From Methylobacterium sp. AMS5 (GTDB lineage Bacteria > Pseudomonadota > Alphaproteobacteria > Rhizobiales > Beijerinckiaceae), in the NCBI RefSeq assembly GCF_001542815.1, contig NZ_CP006992.1, forward strand, positions 3,663,501-3,727,500: DNA of 64,000 nt. The letters are read 5' to 3'. The translations under genes and the position numbers were made by a program. The first letter of the stretch is position 1; every line of letters begins with the position of its first letter. This document shows, in pieces, positions 10,529 to 49,798 of this stretch. Under the pieces are notes generated by a model that did no database searches, had not been told where the DNA came from, and saw only the letters and a program-made list of their open reading frames with translations.

Positions 10529-10602
10529 ATGGCGATGGACGGCACCGAGGTCCTGATCAAAACGGTCACCAGCGAGGAAGCGGCGATCCTCGACGCATGG
10601 GT
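10529..10602 (+). pseudogene. rsbR: 5' fragment of rsbR, cut by an IS3-family insertion
   Basis: Starts ATG at 10529 with AAGGAA 9 bases upstream and encodes MAMDGTEVLIKTVTSEEAAILDAWV before the insertion point. Joining this to the sequence after the second GGGT gives DAWVALLKAGGALQTGR in one frame, which is how RsbRD-type N-terminal domains read. As the DNA stands, translation runs into the IS left end. Confidence 0.88.
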
Positions 10603-10636
10603 TGATCGGCCCCCACGCGGTGGTCCAAGTTCTAAG

Positions 10637-11506
10637 TTAGTGCAGGGTCGGCCTTTGCTCCACGGGTCGCTTGGCCGGCGGAGCCGACCGGGTGAGCGCA
10701 GCCGGCCAAGCGGTGAAGGCCGGCACGAACACCTCCGGGGCCGGTGGTCGGTAGCCGAGCGAGGCGTGCGGGCGCACGCTGTTGTAGTGTAGACGCCAAC
10801 TCTCGATCACGATCTGCGCCTCCTTGAGCGTGTAGAAGATCTCACCGTTCAAAAGCTCGTCCCGTAGTCGTGCGTTGAAGCTCTCGACGTAACCGTTCTC
10901 CCATGGCGAGCCGGGTGCGATGTAGGCTGTTCTGGCGCCGACACCGGTGATCCAGGCCTGCACGGACTTGGCGATGAACTCCGGACCGTTGTCCGAGCGG
11001 ATATGGCCGGGCACGCCGCGCAGGATGAACAGGTCGGACAGCACGTCGATCACGTCCACCGCCTTCAGCTTGCGTGCGACGCGGATCGCCAGGCACTCCC
11101 GCGTGAACTCATCGACCACGTTCAGCATCCGGAACTTGCGGCCCTCGTGCGTGCGGGCTTCGACAAAGTCGTAGGACCAGACGTGATCGCGACGCTCCGC
11201 CCGCAATCGCAGGCAGGAACCATCCCCGTCCCAGATGCGGCCGCGCTTGGGCTGCCGAGACGGGACCTTCAGCCCCTCGCGCCGCCAGATCCGTTCGACC
11301 CGCTTGTCGTTGACGAACCAGCCCGCCGCCTTCAGCAATGCACCGATCTTCCGGTAGCCGTAGCGCCCGTACTGGCGAGCCAGTTCCACGAGGTCGGCTG
11401 TCAGCGCGGCCTCATCCTCTCTTCCCCGCGGCACCTTGCGCTGCGTCGAGCGATGCTGCCCGAGCGCCCGACAGGCGCGGCGCTCGGAGACGTCTAGGAC
11501 GTTCAT
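10637..11506 (-). CDS. IS3-family transposase OrfB (DDE integrase catalytic part)
   Basis: Carries the rve-type DDE core: [25 protein letters not shown] (first Asp), [14 protein letters not shown] (second Asp) and [18 protein letters not shown] (Glu), with C-terminal [17 protein letters not shown]. The N-terminus [23 protein letters not shown] is the HTH_21-like segment. The listed ATG at 11506 is probably not the main start: the frame joins OrfA by a -1 shift at GGGAAAC, which would make a fused OrfAB transposase. No stop or frameshift is seen in the core. Confidence 0.94.
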
Positions 11507-11544
11507 GACATGCGCGATGCAGGCGCGTCGGCGCGCGGGGCTGG

Positions 11545-11820
11545 TCAGTTTCCCCGAGCGGCCTCCTGCAGGATCAGCTTGTCGAGGGTGAGATCCGCAA
11601 TCGCCTTGCGCAGCCGCTGGTTCTCAACCTCCAAGTCCTTCATCCGTCGAACCTGATCGCTCTTCAGGCCGCCGTACTCCTTGCGCCAGCGGTAGTAGGT
11701 CACTTCCGTCACGCCGATGGCCCGGATCGCCTCCGCCACGCTCTGGCCCTGCGAGACCAGAACATCCACCTGCCGCAGCTTGGCGACCACGTCTTCCGGC
11801 TTGTGCCGCTTCGTTCCCAT
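11545..11820 (-). CDS. IS3-family transposase OrfA (helix-turn-helix)
   Basis: 91 aa from the ATG at 11820 ([51 protein letters not shown]), the DNA-binding HTH subunit, then a leucine-zipper-like [24 protein letters not shown] that mediates OrfA/OrfAB multimerisation. An upstream ATG at 11850 adds ten atypical residues. It ends RGN-stop exactly at the slip site. Confidence 0.93.
11548..11554 (-). promoter_or_regulatory. Likely programmed -1 frameshift site of the IS
   Basis: On the minus strand the OrfA frame ends CGG GGA AAC TGA, giving the heptamer G GGA AAC (X XXY YYZ form) directly before the stop. A -1 slip reads GGG AAA CTG ACC and enters the OrfB frame without meeting a stop. Confidence 0.75.
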
Positions 11821-11885
11821 CTGTCCGTCCTCATCTGGCTCAAAAGCCATACCTCAGGGCGGACCACTTCAGTGGGGGCGGATCA

Positions 11886-12697
11886 GGGTCGCGCTTCTGA
11901 AGGCTGGCGGCGCGCTTCAGACCGGTCGTATCCGGGAGGCCGAGCTTGAGACGCAGGCCAAGTCGGTGCTCGGGCAATTCCGCCGAGCGCTTGCCTCAGG
12001 CAGCACTGACGCGACCGAAGACGCCTATACTTCATTGTGTGAAAGCCTTGCAGACATCTCAAGGTCCCGTGCCATCCAGGGCTTCACTTCAACCGATACC
12101 GCTTCCTTCGTGTTCTCGCTCAAGGAGCCGATCTTCGACGCCCTGAGCCGGGCGTCCGGGAAGGACGCCGCACAGGTGACGGCCGGCATCTGGTCGGCGA
12201 GCAAGGTGATCGACCAACTCGGCCTCCACACGATGGAGGTCTTCCAGCAGAGCCGCGAGGAGGTGATCGGGCGCCAGAGCGAGGAGATCGCCGAACTCTC
12301 GACGCCAGTCGTGCGGCTCTGGGATGGAATCCTCGCGCTGCCCCTGATCGGCACCCTGGATAGCGCCCGAACCGGCGTGGTGATGGAGAACCTCCTCCAG
12401 GCCATCGTCGATGAGGAAGCCGAGATCGCCATCATCGACATCACCGGCGTGCCGACCGTCGACACGCTGGTGGCCCAGCACCTTTTGAAAGCCATTGCCG
12501 CCGCTCGCCTGATGGGAGCCGACTGTATCGTCTCCGGCATCCGACCCCAGATCGCCCAAACGATGGTCCACCTCGGCGTGGAGCTAAACGTGATCTCGAA
12601 GTCCACCCTGGCCGATGCCTTCGCCCTGGCGCTTCGCAGGACGGGCCGCAGCGTCGTGCGCAAGGCTCCTTCCGCGTCTGACGAGAGCCGTCGCTAG
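11886..12697 (+). pseudogene. rsbR: 3' part of rsbR (stressosome RsbRD + STAS), separated from its start by the IS
   Basis: Encodes the rest of a 293-aa RsbR-type stressosome scaffold: an RsbRD-like sensory helical domain (GRIREAELETQAKSVLGQFRRALA, FVFSLKEPIFDALSRASG) and a STAS domain from about VVRLWDGILALPLIGTLD. The RsbT phosphoacceptor context DITGVPTVDTLVA is kept, with Thr217 in restored numbering. The current frame is open back into the IS to an ATG at 11717, so an abnormal fusion with antisense IS sequence at its N-terminus is possible. Otherwise the sensor is lost and only RsbS is intact. rsbS follows 4 bases later. Confidence 0.9.
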
Positions 12698-12701
12698 CGC
12701 C

Positions 12702-13106
12702 ATGGACCGCATTCCGATCCTCAAGCTGGGCGGCGCGCTCATCGTCACCATTCAGGTCGACATGCACGACCGGCTCGCCGTCGCCCTGGAGGAGGACCTC
12801 ACGGCGATGATTTCGCGCACCGGCGCGCGGGGCGTGCTGATCGAAATCTCCGGGTTGGAGATCGTCGATTCCTTTATAGGGCGCATGCTCGACAACATCG
12901 CATCGGTCTCGCGCGTCCTCGACGCAGAGACTGTCGTCGTCGGCATGCGCCCCGCAGTCGCTATTACACTGGTCGAACTTGGCCTGACGCTATCCGGAAT
13001 CAAGACGGCCCTGAACGTTGAGCGCGGGATGGCGATGATACAGGCCCGGCTCAACGAGGAAGACGCCGAAGGCCTGAGGAGCACTCGTGGCCGTTACGAG
13101 GACTGA
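12702..13106 (+). CDS. rsbS: RsbS, stressosome STAS protein
   Basis: 134-aa single STAS domain that co-assembles with RsbR and binds RsbT in the stressosome core. The N-terminus MDRIPILKLGGALIVTIQVDMHDRLAVALEEDL is typical. ISGLEIVDSFIGRML places the phosphoacceptor Ser at residue 57, equivalent to Ser59 of Bacillus RsbS. ATG at 12702, 4 bases after the rsbR stop; the 3' end overlaps rsbT by 20 bases, a sign of tight coupling. No intact RsbR partner is encoded beside it because of the IS. Confidence 0.93.
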   Translation: MDRIPILKLGGALIVTIQVDMHDRLAVALEEDLTAMISRTGARGVLIEISGLEIVDSFIGRMLDNIASVSRVLDAETVVVGMRPAVAITLVELGLTLSGIKTALNVERGMAMIQARLNEEDAEGLRSTRGRYED

Positions 13107-13491
13107 GCGCAAACCAATCCACTCCGGTGACGATGTCGTGCGCGTCCGCCAAGCCGTCCGGACCTTTGCGGTCGAGGCCGGCTTTGGCTTAGTCGATCAA
13201 ACCAAGATCGTCACCGCCGCAAGCGAACTCGCCCGCAACACGTTGGACTACGGTGGCGGCGGCGAAGTTCGGATTGAGATTCTACAGGTGGGCCGCCGCC
13301 GTGGCGTGCGCCTGACATTCGAGGACGAGGGCCCGGGCATCCCCGACATCGGACTTGCCCTTACCGACCACTACACCACGGGAGGCGGCCTGGGCCTTGG
13401 CTTGAGCGGCGCCAAACGCCTATCCAATGAGTTTCATATCGAGTCGACCGTCGGCATCGGGACACGCGTCATCATCGCGCGCTGGAAATGA
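13087..13491 (+). CDS. rsbT: RsbT, switch kinase of the stressosome
   Basis: 134-aa GHKL ATPase/serine-threonine kinase that phosphorylates RsbS/RsbR and is then released to activate a downstream target. N-box ASELARNTLDYGGGG, G1-box DEGPGIPDIG, G2-box GGGLGLGLSGAKRL are all present. The GTG start at 13087 lies inside the rsbS 3' end; the stop overlaps the start of the next gene by four bases. In Bacillus the target is RsbU; none is present here, and the following genes carry domains homologous to RsbT itself. Confidence 0.92.
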   Translation: MAVTRTERKPIHSGDDVVRVRQAVRTFAVEAGFGLVDQTKIVTAASELARNTLDYGGGGEVRIEILQVGRRRGVRLTFEDEGPGIPDIGLALTDHYTTGGGLGLGLSGAKRLSNEFHIESTVGIGTRVIIARWK

Positions 13492-14501
13492 GCATGATCA
13501 GCGTCACCGTGACGGAGGCAAGCCAGGTTGCAGAAACGAGGCGCCGGGCAAGCGGGGTCGCCCTCTCATTAGGATTCGATGAGACTGCGGTCGGCCGTGT
13601 CGCCATCGTCGTGACAGAGCTTGCGACTAACCTCGTCAAATACGGGACCAACGGCGAGATCCTCATCGGAATCTTTGAGGACGAGACGGGTACGGGCGTC
13701 GAGATACTGGCGCTCGACCGTGGCACCGGGATCTCCGACTTGGCGGCAGTGCTACGCGACGGCTATTCCACCGGAGGCAGCCCCGGCACTGGCCTTGGTG
13801 CTGTCAGGCGTCAGTCCCAAGCCTTCGATATGGCCGCGTGGCCAAACAGAGGCCTCGCTGTGCTTACGCGGATCACGAGTACAGTCAGCCGGGCCTCATC
13901 CGTGGCCCCCGGTCCGGTTCCACATTTCGGAGCTGTAGGTGTGCCTTTGCGCGGCGAGGCCGTGAGCGGGGACGCTTACTGCGTCCGTCCGCACGGCAAG
14001 GGGTGGACCGTGCTGGTTGCCGACGGTCTCGGACACGGACCTCTGGCCGCACAGGCCTCAGATGCGGCCGTGCGCGTGTTTCGCGCGCACGATCATGAGC
14101 CTCCGGGTCGCATCCTTGCGTCGGTTCATGCAGGCCTTGGACATACTCGCGGCGGAGCGGTGTCGGTGGCGCGCTATGACGCCGATCGTGGGACGCTGGT
14201 GTTCGCCGGCATCGGCAACGTCGCGGGTGGCGTGATCACCGGTGGCGTGACCAAGCGCCTCGTTTCCCTGTCCGGAACCGCTGGCCTCGTCGCCCGCCGC
14301 ATCCAGGAGTTCGAGTATCCCTTCACCCCACAAAGCGTTCTCGTGATGTGCTCGGATGGTATTGGAACAAGCTGGTCCCTCGAAAACTACCCGGGCCTCG
14401 TCGGCGCACATCCCACCCTCATCGCAGGCGTAATCTACCGCGACTTCGCGCGGGGGCGCGATGACGCCACGGTCGTGGTCGCCAAGGACCCGGCATCGTG
14501 A
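13488..14501 (+). CDS. RsbX-like PP2C phosphatase fused to an N-terminal RsbW/RsbT-type ATPase domain
   Basis: 337 aa with two domains. Residues about 1-130 form a GHKL domain (VTELATNLVKYG N-box, DRGTGISDL G1, GGSPGTGLGAVRRQ G2). Residues about 145-335 form a SpoIIE/RsbX-type PP2C domain: GEAVSGDAYCV, VLVADGLGHGPLA, VLVMCSDGIGTSW and RGRDDATVVVAKD supply the metal-binding Asp residues. The predicted role is to dephosphorylate RsbR/RsbS and reset the stressosome; the ATPase part may bind RsbS or phosphorylate it. Bacillus RsbX lacks the kinase half. Starts by a 4-base overlap with rsbT and ends by a GTGA overlap with the kinase gene. Confidence 0.88.
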   Translation: MSMISVTVTEASQVAETRRRASGVALSLGFDETAVGRVAIVVTELATNLVKYGTNGEILIGIFEDETGTGVEILALDRGTGISDLAAVLRDGYSTGGSPGTGLGAVRRQSQAFDMAAWPNRGLAVLTRITSTVSRASSVAPGPVPHFGAVGVPLRGEAVSGDAYCVRPHGKGWTVLVADGLGHGPLAAQASDAAVRVFRAHDHEPPGRILASVHAGLGHTRGGAVSVARYDADRGTLVFAGIGNVAGGVITGGVTKRLVSLSGTAGLVARRIQEFEYPFTPQSVLVMCSDGIGTSWSLENYPGLVGAHPTLIAGVIYRDFARGRDDATVVVAKDPAS

Positions 14502-16399
14502 AGTGGCCTCTCGTGACGATGATGATCGCGCACGAGGATGACATCTTCACCGTGCGCCAGCGCGTCCGACGCGTGGCAGGGCAAATCGGCTTCGGCGCGC
14601 CAGACCAGACCCGGATCGCCACCGCTGTCTCCGAGATCGCGCGCAACGCCCATGACTATGCGGGCGGTGGTCGCGTTGAGCTCGGGGTCGATGTCCTAGC
14701 CGGGCGTCAAGCCCTGGTCGTGCGCATCGTCGATCAGGGACCTGGCATCGCCGAACTCTCGGCGATCCTGGAGGGCCGGTATCGTTCGGCCACGGGCCTC
14801 GGCATCGGCATCACCGGGTCGCGTCGGCTCGTGGATCGCTTTGACGTTCTCACCAAACCCGGCGACGGCACGACGGTGACGCTGGGGAAGGTCATCCCCG
14901 CTGGCCGCCCTTCGCTCACCGGACCGGCGGTCGCCGCGTTGGCGGAGGCGATGCGGGGCTGGAGCGAGGGGCCACAAGCCGCGATGCGCGAGCAGAACCG
15001 CGAATTGCTCGCCAGCCTCGCGGACCTGTCCGAACGCGAGGAGGAAGCCCGGCGCCTGAACGCCGAGTTGGCGGAGACCAACCGCGGTGTGGTCGCGCTC
15101 TATGCCGAACTGGAGACCCAGGCCGGGCAGTTGCGCGAGGCCGGCGCGACCTTGGAAAGTCAGGTTTCGGAACGCACGATCGAACTCGCGCAGGCGAACG
15201 AACGGCTCAAGGCCGAAGCCGAGGAGCGCGAGCGCATGGGGGAGAACCTGCGCCAGTCCCAGAAGATGGAAGCCGTGGGGCAGCTCACCGGCGGCATCGC
15301 GCATGACTTCAATAACCTGCTCACCGGTATCGTCGGATCGCTCGACCTGATGCAGACCCGAATGCGGCAGGGCCGTACCGAGAACCTGAAGCGCTACATC
15401 GAGACGGCCATGGCCTCGGCCAATCGCGCCGCGGCCCTGACCCATCGGCTCCTCGCCTTCGCCCGGCGCCAGCCCCTCGACCCGAAGCCGACGGACGTGA
15501 ACGCGCTGATCGGCGGCATGTCCGATCTCCTCCGTCGGACCACGAGCGAAGCCATCGAGTTGCGCGTCCTCTCGGAGCCTGCCCTCTGGCCGACCGTGTG
15601 CGATCCGCACCAGCTTGAGAACGCGATCCTGAACCTCGTCATCAACGCGCGCGATGCCATGCCCAACGGGGGCGTCCTGACCATCGCGACCACCAATGGG
15701 CGGCACGAGGCGAAGGACCCGGATCTGCGGAACTCGGGACTGACATCGGAGTACGTCTGCATCAGCGTCTCCGACACGGGGACCGGCATGCCGCCCGAGG
15801 TTGTGGCGCGGGCCTTCGACCCGTTCTTCACCACGAAGCCGCTCGGCCAGGGCACGGGCCTGGGCCTGTCGATGATCTATGGCTTTGCCCGTCAGTCCGA
15901 AGGGCAGGCGCACATCGAGAGTGTCGTGGATCGCGGGACCACGGTCACCATTCGCCTTCCTCGCAACGCCGCGAGCCATGTCGAGGCGGCTCCTGCGCCG
16001 GAGGTTGGGGAAATCCCACGTGGAGCGGGCGAGACCGTGCTTGTGGTCGAGGACGAGCAGACCGTGCGGGACCTCATCGTCGAGGTCCTCCATGACCTCG
16101 GCTACAAGACCCTTCAGGCTGGGGATGGGCTCTCCGGATTACGGGTCCTCAAGTCGTCGGTGCAGATCGACCTTCTTGTCTCGGACGTCGGCTTGCCCGG
16201 CCTGAACGGACGGCAACTCGCGGATCAAGCGCGCGAAACCCGCCCCAACCTGAAGGTGCTGTTCATTACCGGCTATGCGGAAGGCGCGGCGACGCCTTCG
16301 GGATTTCTCGATCCCGGCATGGCGATGATCACAAAGCCTTTCGCGGTGGATACACTGATGTCCCGCATCAGAGAGATTATCCAAGGCAATGGCTTATAA
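14498..16399 (+). CDS. Hybrid histidine kinase with an N-terminal RsbT-like ATPase domain and C-terminal receiver
   Basis: 633 aa. Residues about 5-145 are a second RsbT-like domain ([40 protein letters not shown] aligns by eye with RsbT; G1 [10 protein letters not shown]2 [14 protein letters not shown]). A coiled coil follows at 165-250 (long Glu/Arg/Leu heptads). Next is an HWE-unlike dimerisation/phosphoacceptor box [11 protein letters not shown] with His269, a HATPase ([38 protein letters not shown]) and a receiver domain near 510-630 with phospho-Asp in [10 protein letters not shown] and Lys in ITKPF. No membrane segment, so cytosolic. Its position suggests it is the stressosome output, replacing RsbU/sigma-B. 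GTG start overlaps the upstream TGA; an ATG at 14519 is also possible. Confidence 0.9.
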
Positions 16400-44350: not shown

Positions 44351-44354
<4 letters not shown>

Positions 44355-47068
44355 GCGGCGATATCCCTTGGCGTGGTCCGGGCGGGAACCGGGAGCGTCA
44401 CGGTGAAGGCGGCCCCCAACCGGTCCCGGCGGTTGCCGGCGGTGACCGTACCCCCCATGGCCTCGACGAAGCCGCGCGAGATGGCGAGGCCGAGCCCGGT
44501 CCCGGCCCGTACCCGGTCGCTCTTCCGGACGCGGTAGAACTTGTCGAACACGCGCTCGACATCCGCCTCCGGGAGCCCGAACCCCTCGTCCAGAACCTCG
44601 ATGCGCACGGTGCGCCCGTCCCGCCGGGCGCGCACCGTAACGGTCGAGTCCTCGGGCGCGTACTTCGCGGCGTTGTCGAGCAGGTTGACCAGCACCTGCT
44701 CGAACAGGACCGGATCGAGCCTCAGGGTCGGCAGGTCGGGTGCGATCGCGACCGCAAGCCGGTGGCCGGCAAGGATCTTCTGGGTCCGCCGCAGGGCGGT
44801 GTCGATGGTCTCGGCGACATCCTGGAGCGCCAGGTTCGGCGTCACGGCCCCGGCCTCCAGCCGCGTCATGTCGAGCAGGTTCACGATGAAGCGGTTCAAC
44901 CGCTCCGATTCCTCGATGATGGTCGTCAACAACTCCGCCTTGGCCTCGATGGGGAGGGCGCCGTCGAGGTCCCGCAATGTGCTGGCGGCTCCGAGCACGG
45001 AGGCGAGCGGCGTCCGCAGATCGTGGCTGATCGAGGTCAGCAGCGCTCGGGCGAGGCGATCGGTCTCGGCGGCACGCTCGGCCCGGTCGAGATCCTCGAC
45101 GAGGCGCACCCGCTCGAGGGCGAGCGCGCCCATATCGGCGAGTGCGTCGAGAAGGCGCCGGCCTTCAGGCGTCAGGATCGGGCCCGTGCCGTCCGCATCG
45201 AGGCCGATCACCCCGATGGTGCCGCGCCCGGTGCGCATCGGCAGGAACAGGCGCTTGGCCCCGGGCAGGGTGTCGGCGCCGCGCCCGGTCGGGCGCTCGT
45301 TGTCGAAGGCCCACTGCGCCGCCGCCAGGTCGGCCTCGTCCAGCATGTCCTCCGGCGGGTAGCCGGCACGGACGGCGAGGGCCTTATCATCCGGCAGGAG
45401 AAGGACGACGCGTACCCTCAGCATGGCCGCGACCTGCGCGGAGGTCGCCCAGAGCACGTCGTCGAGGGTCCCGCAGGCCGCGAGCTTGCGCGAGAACCCG
45501 AAGAGCCGCTCCGTGGCCTTCGCGCGGCCCTGGCTGACCACGGCGCTCAGGCGGGCACGGGCGGCGAGGTTCGAGACCAGCACCGCCACCAGGGTGAAGA
45601 GCAGAAAGGCCGCGATGTTGGTCGGGTCGGCGATGGTGAAGGTGTAGACCGGCGGCAGGAAGAAGAAGTTGTACGACAGCGAGGCCGCCACCACCGCGGC
45701 GAGCGAGGGCCCCAGGCCCCAGCGCACGGCGACCGCCACGACGGCGGTCAGCAGCATGAGGTCGGCGTTCTCGACGCCCGTAGACGGCTCCAGCAGCAAA
45801 GCGAGCCCGAGTCCGGCACCGGTGACGAGCAGCGCCAGGGCGTAGGACCGGGCGTCGAAGGTGGCGGGCGGAGCGGCGGTGGCGACCGCGCGCCGGGACG
45901 CCATCTCGGTCGGCGCGTCCTCGCCCGGTACCACGTGGACGCTGATGTTGCCGCTGCGGCGGACGAGGTCGTGCACCACCGAGCCGTTCACGAGTTCGAA
46001 GGCCCAGGAGCGCGTCGCCTTGCCCACCACGATGTGGTTCACATTGGCGGAGCGTGCGTAGGCGAGGATGTCGTCGGCGACGCGCCGGCCGCCCGGCAGG
46101 GTGACGGCGTCGCCACCGAGCCGGTCGGCGAGCCGCAAGGCCTCGGCCACCCCGTCGCGCGCGGCCTCACTGAGGGAGGCGGCGCGCGGTCCCTCGACCA
46201 CCAGGGCGGTCCAGGGGGCGTGGAGGCGGTCAGCCAGCCGCTTGGCGTAGCGCACGAGGCCTGCCGAGCGCGGATCCTCACTCACGCAGACGAGCACGCG
46301 CTCGCCCGCCGCCCAGGGGCCGGGGATCGCATTGGCCCGCATGTGGCTCAGGAGCTCGTCATCGACCCGGTCGGCCGTCCGACGCAGGGCGAGCTCCCGC
46401 AGGGCCGTCAGATTGCCGCGCGAGAAGTAGTGCTTGAGTGCCCGCTCGGCGTTCGCCGGCACGTAAACCTTGCCCGCCTTCAGGCGCTCGATCAGATCGT
46501 CCGGGTTGAGGTCGACCACCTCGATGTCGTCGGCCCGGTCGAGGATGCTGTCCGGCACGGTTTCGCGCACGCGGATGCGGGTGATGGAGGCCACGACATC
46601 GTTGAGGCTCTCGACGTGCTGGATGTTCAGCGTCGTCAGGACATCGATGCCGGCGTCGAGCAACTCCTCCACGTCCTGGTAGCGTTTGGGGTGGCGCGAG
46701 CCGGGCGCGTTGGTGTGGGCGAGTTCGTCGACCAGCGCCAGGGCCGGGCGGCGCGCCAGCAGCGCGTCGAGGTCCATCTCCTCCAGCACGGTGCCATGGT
46801 AGGGCACGGCCCGTCGCGGGATGGTCTCGAAGCCGTCGAGCAAAGCCTCGGTCTCGGCCCGGCCATGGGTCTCGACCACGCCGACCACGACATCGGCGCC
46901 GGCCTTGAGCTTGGCACGCCCGATGGTGAGCATCTCGTAGGTCTTGCCGACGCCGGGAGCGGCGCCAAGAAAGACCTTGAGACGGCCGCGCGTCCGCTCT
47001 TCCCGGCGGGCCGCTTGGAGCAGCGCGTCGGGCGAGGGGCGGTTCGGGTCGCGGCCGGTCCCGGGCAT
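44351..47068 (-). CDS. kdpD: KdpD sensor histidine kinase
   Basis: 905 aa. Order: N-terminal KdpD domain with Walker [14 protein letters not shown] and [41 protein letters not shown]; a USP domain near 250-375 ([38 protein letters not shown]); four short transmembrane helices (DUF4118) near 405-500; a GAF-like linker; the His box [19 protein letters not shown] near residue 670; HATPase ([51 protein letters not shown]). Senses potassium/ionic strength. It starts 10 bases after kdpC, so the regulatory genes are in the same operon as the pump. Confidence 0.96.
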
Positions 47069-47078
47069 GGTTCGCTCT

Positions 47079-47684
47079 TTAGCGCTTGGCGAGGTCGTCC
47101 AGGAGAAGATTCAGGGCGAGCACGTTGACGCGCGGTTCACCGAGCAGTCCGAGGGTGCGGCCCTGGACCTGACTGGCGACGAGCTCGCGGAGCCTGTCCT
47201 CGGGCAGGTTGCGGGCTCGGGCGATGCGCGGCACCTGGAACAGGGCCGCCTCGGGCGAGACGTCGGGGTCGAGGCCCGAGCCGCTCGTGGTGACGAGATC
47301 GACCGGCACCGGCCGACCTGGGTTCTCGGCCCTCCGCGCGTCGAGGTCACCCTTCACGCGCTCGGCCAGCGCCGCGCTCGTGGGCCCGAGATTCGAGCCG
47401 GCGGAGTTGGCCGCGTTGTAAGGGGCCGACACGGTCCTGGAGGCGTCCGCCGGATCGGCCGCGGTGGTGGCCGAGGGCCGGCCATGGAAGTAGCCCTCGC
47501 CGGTGAAGCTCTGGCCGATCAGGCTGGAACCGACGATCGTGCCGTCGCGCTCGATCAAGCTTCCTGCGGCCTTGGCCGGGAAGAGCGCCCCGGCGACGCC
47601 GGTGACGGCGAGGGGGTAGGCGAGGCCCGTAACCGCCGTCAGCGCGACGAGCAGGACAAGGGCGGGACGAAGCTGATTCAACAT
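47079..47684 (-). CDS. kdpC: KdpC subunit of the potassium-transporting ATPase
   Basis: 201 aa: one N-terminal transmembrane helix ([29 protein letters not shown]), then the periplasmic domain with [62 protein letters not shown] and the C-terminal [19 protein letters not shown]. Start ATG at 47684 with GGAGGTCTCC-type purines upstream of it on the minus strand. Family length normal. Confidence 0.95.
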
Positions 47685-47707
47685 GGGAGGTCTCCGGGAC
47701 CTGTCGT

Positions 47708-49798
<2,091 letters not shown>

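Follow-up and report, generated by a model that had tools for sequence, protein, structure and literature searches.

The 64,000-nucleotide stretch of the Methylobacterium sp. AMS5 genome analysed here (contig NZ_CP006992.1, positions 3,663,501 to 3,727,500, forward strand; hereafter the window, in whose own numbering coordinates are given) carries a cassette of five genes: rsbR, rsbS, rsbT, a gene for an ATPase-phosphatase fusion protein (X) and a gene for a hybrid histidine kinase (K) that begins with a domain resembling the switch kinase RsbT. This arrangement is real and conserved. K is likely an output of the stressosome, and we give about even credence to the view that the whole cassette is a stressosome (RsbR, RsbS, RsbT and the reset phosphatase X) which acts on a histidine kinase instead of sigma-B. 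The features that carry this reading are the following.

12702-13106, + strand: rsbS, STAS protein with the phospho-acceptor Ser57 in a VDS motif, matching RsbS chain 6qcm at 1.2e-30
13087-13491, + strand: rsbT, GHKL switch kinase (Pfam HATPase_c and HATPase_c_2)
13488-14501, + strand: X, HATPase_c_2 head (residues 10-114) and PP2C phosphatase of the RsbX/SpoIIE type (residues 171-292; Pfam HATPase_c_2 and SpoIIE)
14498-16399, + strand: K, RsbT-headed hybrid histidine kinase, 633 amino acids
14519-14890, + strand: head of K (residues 8-131), RsbT-like, in a clade of its own; Pfam HATPase_c_2 at residues 16-130
15065-15112, + strand: coil motif of K (residues 190-205), many near-invariant columns in a 52-row alignment, tied to stressosome loci
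15278-15472, + strand: HisKA of K (Pfam), phospho-acceptor His269
15602-15964, + strand: HATPase_c of K (residues 369-489; Pfam)
16037-16372, + strand: REC of K (residues 514-625; Pfam)

The first-pass annotation of this DNA had placed rsbS and rsbT, an ATPase-PP2C fusion and a kinase at 12702-16399, with overlaps of 4-20 bases at all junctions. The coordinates and Pfam domains agree with it, and the overlaps measure 20 bases (rsbS-rsbT), 4 bases (rsbT-X) and 4 bases (X-K). It had overlooked rsbR, which lies upstream of rsbS across a 4-base gap and is split by an insertion sequence (IS). Ser57 of RsbS, the serine of its DS motif, aligns to Ser56 of chain 6qcm, and the N-box and G-boxes of RsbT are intact, as in the GHKL kinase of a stressosome module. 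The phosphatase part of X matches chains 3zt9 (SpoIIE; 4.1e-7) and 3w40 (RsbX; 3.6e-5), but X differs from a single-domain RsbX-type PP2C in bearing an additional GHKL head. K possesses the three parts of a hybrid histidine kinase (HisKA with its histidine, HATPase_c and REC), and His269 is unchanged in all 49 aligned kinases. A Pfam scan of K revealed neither RsbU_N (PF08673) nor PAS, GAF or any other sensor or input domain; with the head as the one input domain that Pfam recognises, K is most naturally read as giving the stressosome an output through a phosphorelay. The absence of a sigma factor, RsbU and RsbW, also claimed earlier, holds for the cassette, which comprises R, S, T, X and K only and was the scope of this search; RsbV is likewise absent from it. 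K is followed by a convergent LysR regulator on the opposite strand, with no response regulator directly after it.

Residues 10-131 of K align with the neighbouring RsbT over 122 residues at 40% identity (E 3e-26), and in a genome search with K, the RsbT gene ranked first among the other matches to the head (2.4e-23). The head of X is less RsbT-like (26% identity, 5e-10). The likeness to RsbT formerly assigned to the first 145 residues of K thus stands, while its extent is better given as residues 8-131. The possibility that this region adopts an unrelated fold was not borne out: a 52-row profile of the head, compared with solved structures, matched SpoIIAB (2.2e-9) and RsbW (1.6e-4). The ATPase of the sensor kinase YycG scored slightly better (8e-10), as expected within one superfamily. 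A chance similarity is ruled out by the E value to RsbT, the clades of the trees and the SpoIIAB and RsbW profile matches. In these trees, for which the classes had been assigned beforehand by gene context and length, FastTree placed every one of the 94 K heads together with a support of 0.645, every one of the 95 X heads with 0.996 and 89 of the 99 RsbT with 0.987. IQ-TREE, applied to 91 heads, grouped 31/31 K (bootstrap 99, Shimodaira-Hasegawa-like approximate likelihood ratio test 91), 30/30 X (100 and 100) and 26/30 RsbT (98 and 89), the four RsbT left outside all coming from cassettes with HWE-type kinases. On account of these separate groups, RsbT and the heads of X and K look like paralogues of long standing, three in number. 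The K head differs from RsbT in being fused and in standing outside the RsbT clade, whereas RsbT is a free-standing switch kinase. Across the 99 RsbT, 95 X and 94 K heads, the ATP-binding residues show little or no variation; E46, N50, D79, G81, G83, G102 and G104 are kept in 100% of the 94 K heads, like in RsbT. With a dN/dS of 0.05 relative to the M. goesingense locus L078, the head is under purifying selection.

The resemblance of the K head to RsbT lies mainly in two of the three helices by which RsbW binds its STAS partner. With helix limits that we drew from the SpoIIAB alignment, the mean RsbT-K identity in 25 chosen loci was 39% for helix 1, where RsbT-X reached 20%, and 57% for helix 2, where RsbT-X reached 25%. 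In the remainder of the domain, K was no closer to RsbT than X was (35% vs 36%). K surpassed X in identity to RsbT in 23/25 loci for helix 1, 25/25 for helix 2 and 11/25 for the rest; these loci are related and so cannot count as independent trials. Averaging over all 90-93 loci gave an agreeing picture. In the RsbV-RsbW crystal structure, helices 1-3 of RsbW touch the STAS partner, with Arg23, Asp42, Lys44/Ser48, Glu49 and Tyr118 named as contacts (PMC7340262). By the numbering offset, RsbW Arg23, Ser48 and Glu49 would correspond to R20, S45 and E46 of K, which are kept in 100, 98 and 100% of the K heads. The position of RsbT K40 (R39 in K) stays basic, and Asp42 and Lys44 of RsbW are without a match.

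The cassette is widespread. A scan of genome contigs provided the best 80 of 551 relatives (L numbers designate these and the other loci compared here). These 80 comprise many Methylobacterium as well as Janthinobacterium, Bradyrhizobium, Sphingomonas and other proteobacteria, the cyanobacteria Nostoc, Microcoleus and Phormidium, and metagenome-assembled genomes titled Planctomycetota, Bryobacteraceae, Nitrospira, Rokuibacteriota and Deltaproteobacteria. The genome search for the five-gene order proposed in the first-pass annotation found R-S-T-X-K in 77 of them (in L097, K itself ends at the contig end); as to the other three, contig ends truncate L105 and L150, and L155 is rearranged, with X and K only. 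Counting all rows with a kinase core (101, including 7 duplicates; 94 unique), R, S, T and X lie upstream of K on the same strand and within 10 kb in 96/101; the record titles cover six phyla, and the arrangement also occurs in Deinococcus radiodurans. The five other rows are L105, L150, L155, L064 (contig end) and L210, so that K unlinked to rsbRST, the other finding that would have told against the earlier proposal, is rare. Fused head-kinase matches, which we counted from open-frame length in overlapping genome samples, occurred in 9/149 genomes of the same family (16 with any match), 10/397 of the same order (14) and 10/398 of the same phylum (39). Two weak matches of the family scan were excluded from this count, G032 being an unrelated kinase and G102 showing no head.

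Several loci depart from the common pattern or setting. At L210 (6018-8521), the RsbT-headed kinase is an orphan and lies in divergent orientation to a lone RsbR (RsbRD_N and STAS); RsbS, RsbT and X were not detected in the 14-kb stretch around it, and the same genome has a full cassette (L211). In L155 (3631-9205), from an Oscillatoria metagenome-assembled genome, a fusion of a Ser/Thr kinase with a periplasmic-binding domain stands in place of R-S-T before a shortened X and K, an arrangement that faulty assembly may have produced. Methylobacterium sp. J-067 has two cassettes in a single assembly (L085, L088). Plasmid records carry the cassette in Deinococcus (L225, NC_000958) and in Sphingomonas (L226, NZ_CP061037), the latter in the five-gene version. 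In L221 (1513-2550), RsbT is fused straight to a PP2C phosphatase in one open frame, after rsbR-rsbS. L222 (4499-9893) has a stressosome with two RsbT-like proteins, followed by RsbU_N-GGDEF and RsbU_N-PAS-kinase-REC proteins.

The catalytic half of K has been exchanged among the relatives (CckA-like, other HisKA, HWE), with the head and the coil retained. In 11 HisKA-type K loci among L057-L071, identity to the K of the window is 46-65% in the head and 52-79% in the linker, and ranges from 75% down to 24% in the catalytic part; in the Methylobacterium loci L059 and L060, a head of 62-65% identity is joined to a different core, of 45-47%. Among the 94 unique K, 73 have HisKA and one REC, 10 have two REC, 7 have none (some being cut at contig ends) and 4 are of the HWE type. 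In 57 of the 94, K is followed by a REC-first kinase of the layout REC-HisKA-HATPase, in most cases with another REC; the window is without one. RsbU_N-kinases replace K in other cassettes (L065, L218, L222; L067 lies below the cut-off). A connection of the HWE versions to PhyR/EcfG was also considered and rejected: none of the seven selected neighbours scanned in the four HWE loci was PhyR-like, and one was a lone REC protein (L074:1437-1895).

From these data, our best reading is that K is a client of the stressosome, which would be released with RsbT or like it and would signal through its coil. The first-pass annotation had suggested that RsbT release is read by a two-component relay through the RsbT-like domain. 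The layout (RsbT-like, coil, HisKA, HATPase and REC) was confirmed, and so was the linkage to rsbRST, both being widely conserved; the release of RsbT may be read via the head. As the best single mechanism, and one about as credible as not, we propose that the K head binds to the STAS core in the manner of RsbT. In unstressed cells, the RsbS/RsbR STAS core would hold RsbT, as well as K by its RsbT-like head. Upon stress, RsbT (or the head) would phosphorylate Ser57 of RsbS and RsbR, thereby freeing K. The free head and the adjoining coil would then take the active dimer form, and HisKA would phosphorylate itself and hand the phosphate on to REC; in many relatives the second, REC-first kinase would also receive it. 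Finally, X would dephosphorylate the STAS proteins and reset the core. The binding, the direction of the signal and the targets in this cycle are what we infer. That the orphan K of L210 adjoins a lone RsbR supports K being a client. The arrangement is probably a direct wire from the stressosome to a phosphorelay.

Stressosome coupling is best marked by the coil. In the collected loci, a pattern for TNRGVVALY, written after the motif had been seen, occurs in 82/101 K, in 5/46 kinases without K head or RsbU_N, in 0/66 REC-first kinases and in 0/6 RsbU_N kinases. The five headless kinases that bear it (L073, L217, L219, L220, L223) sit directly behind X. The pattern is missing from 19 K, namely 4 HWE kinases, L061, L210 and 13 other HisKA kinases; of these 13, L213-L215 still match the coil query described below. 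In the genome of the window, the coil matches K only. With the coil of L071 as query, 17 of 398 same-phylum genomes had a single match apiece at E 1e-4; 9 of the 17 were already known as K carriers when the query was made. All 17 matches start 1.38-1.88 kb behind the start of an RsbT match. Nine belong to headed and eight to headless kinases; the eight headless loci (L217, L219, L220, L223, L239-L241, L244) were all inspected and show RsbT, the ATPase-PP2C protein and a headless HisKA kinase. These matches are the main reason for considering that RsbT acts in trans: as the position of K is taken in some loci by headless kinases that have this coil (the eight loci above and L073), released RsbT could dock on the kinase coil as it does on the linker of RsbU, which it orders into a coiled coil, thereby activating RsbU (PMC12143880). 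The head would then be a relic serving dimerisation or ATP sensing. We regard this as the main rival reading, possible but somewhat unlikely. It accommodates the association of the coil with stressosomes, but not the purifying selection on the head with its ATP-binding residues and STAS-facing helices kept, nor the absence of RsbU_N from K, nor the four HWE kinases that have the head without the motif.

A signal running in the reverse direction appears quite unlikely. The head would be a working STAS kinase under the control of the phosphorelay, and K would feed two-component signals into the stressosome; every ATP-binding residue is indeed kept in the K head, and the REC domains, together with the REC-first kinase following most K, could serve as input, but K has no sensor of its own that Pfam recognises, and it is the catalytic half, not the head, that varies. 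That K is an ordinary co-localised histidine kinase with an unrelated GHKL duplicate as head and no mechanistic coupling is very improbable in spite of the abundance of GHKL domains (26 PF13581 matches in the genome, 16 above the cut-off, most in long open frames), given the linkage across phyla, the single head clade and the coil tied to stressosome loci.

Several observations weigh against K being a client held by its head. First, the head is not needed for linkage, since 8/17 coil-bearing genomes have a headless kinase; L073 likewise retains the cassette with a headless kinase. Second, all four HWE kinases and the orphan of L210 keep the head without the coil motif. Third, helix 1 also forms the dimer face of RsbW, so that the helix agreement could reflect dimerisation instead; both shared helices may mark a common dimer face or a contact between RsbT and K. 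Fourth, the K-head clade obtained just 0.645 in FastTree, and the named loci, being the most similar 80 of 551, are a biased set. Fifth, the stressosome cycle may be broken in the AMS5 strain, because its rsbR is split.

The split rsbR and its IS element are arranged as follows.

10529-10602, + strand: rsbR 5' fragment, ATG to codon 24, matching the start of the intact 293-residue RsbR of M. goesingense (L078)
10603-11885, - strand: IS element, presumably of the IS3 family; OrfB 10637-11506, OrfA 11545-11850; ends TGATCGGCCCCCAC/GTGGGGGCGGATCA
11886-12697, + strand: rsbR remainder, 269 codons, rest of RsbRD_N and STAS with the sites GTLDS and VDT

The element is flanked by a 4-base repeat (GGGT at 10599-10602 and 11886-11889). 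Its proteins have the Pfam domains rve_3/rve/HTH_21 and HTH_Tnp_1, the pair by which we take it to be an IS3-family member. The insertion looks recent, since the genome has two other copies with ~100% identity to it. The rsbR remainder matches RsbRD_N (3.1e-17, from profile position 28), STAS (1.2e-13) and RsbR chain 7b0u (2.2e-31). An N-terminal sensor and a STAS domain with phospho-sites are present in RsbR, but its gene is split in this strain and intact in L077 and L078; what we take to be the first phospho-site shows a T to S change. The 4.5-kb cassette has ~90% DNA identity to L077 and L078, and the kinase N-terminus is 96-97% identical. Relative to L078, dN/dS is 0.04-0.09 for the rsbR remainder (0.06), S, T, X and K, low values that reflect the history prior to the IS insertion. 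Between K and its L077 and L078 counterparts, synonymous divergence is 0.35-0.43 in the head, 0.05-0.12 in the linker and kinase core and 0.25-0.28 in REC; the low part (14900-15997) behaves as though it had recently recombined. Elsewhere in the window, a kdp-like potassium-transport locus (44351-49798) encodes a KdpD-type sensor kinase and a P-type ATPase.

The earlier remark that stressosome genes adjoin two-component genes in some Proteobacteria is published knowledge: a study of Vibrio vulnificus lists eleven architectures downstream of RSTX modules, among them HisKA/REC relays and some RsbU_N heads (PMC9237108). Similarly to the cassette studied here, the VvD1-D2 system has a four-gene stressosome module directly followed by kinase and REC outputs, without sigma-B (PMC9237108, PMC10014275), and the similar phenotypes of the RSTX and D1 deletions provide a genetic precedent for the coupling of a stressosome to a two-component system (PMC10014275). 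Modules of this type differ in that X is described as a single-domain PP2C and the outputs as occurring with or without RsbU_N, an RsbT-like head being unmentioned in the portion of the report at hand (PMC9237108). The RsbU_N histidine kinases already noted resemble K in being stressosome-adjacent, with an N-terminal coupling module and a coiled-coil linker (PMC12143880, PMC9237108), but their head is RsbU_N, which binds RsbT, whereas that of K is RsbT-like; both types occur in the family of the window (L065). Bacillus subtilis has R, S, T and a reset phosphatase in its RsbRST-RsbU/V/W-sigB-RsbX system, where a phosphatase cascade carries the output to a sigma factor (PMC9237108), unlike the present cassette, which is no sigma-B operon. 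A further likeness is the cluster DR_RS15570-DR_RS15595 on MP1 of D. radiodurans R1, which has the same five genes (R 53%, S 63%, T 62.5%, X 41% and K 32% identical over the aligned parts). It differs in that a sixth gene, for a second kinase, follows K, which is annotated merely as 'ATP-binding protein'. By our mapping, the two kinases are probably DR_B0028 and DR_B0029. One paper reports a higher level of DR_B0028 after vacuum recovery and refers to the opinion that the two share their regulation with an operon for antisigma regulation (PMC6501615). Stressosomes with two-component outputs and RsbU_N-kinases are therefore already published, while the RsbT-like head is apparently under-described: no description of it on a histidine kinase was found in the literature searched, in the parts at hand and short of key reviews, so that a prior mention is possible.

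How Gram-negative stressosomes transmit their signal is an open question; in the V. vulnificus study, the majority of the downstream proteins considered lacked RsbU_N, and no positive RsbT-D1 interaction was obtained (PMC9237108). A kinase bearing a switch domain, with a coil common to headed and headless stressosome kinases, offers a concrete and testable coupling element. Both D. radiodurans and Methylobacterium are genetically workable. Recognising this element would allow stressosome-controlled kinases to be found among records named 'ATP-binding protein'. More tentatively, and short of an even chance, several phyla may wire the stressosome to phosphorelays via one coupling unit, a conserved coil answering an RsbT-type domain either in trans (RsbT, headless kinases) or in cis (the fused K head), with K itself being a stressosome subunit sequestered on the RsbS/RsbR STAS domains. 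If this is true, the switch protein and the output kinase would be one molecule, and the output would be exchangeable by swapping the catalytic half.

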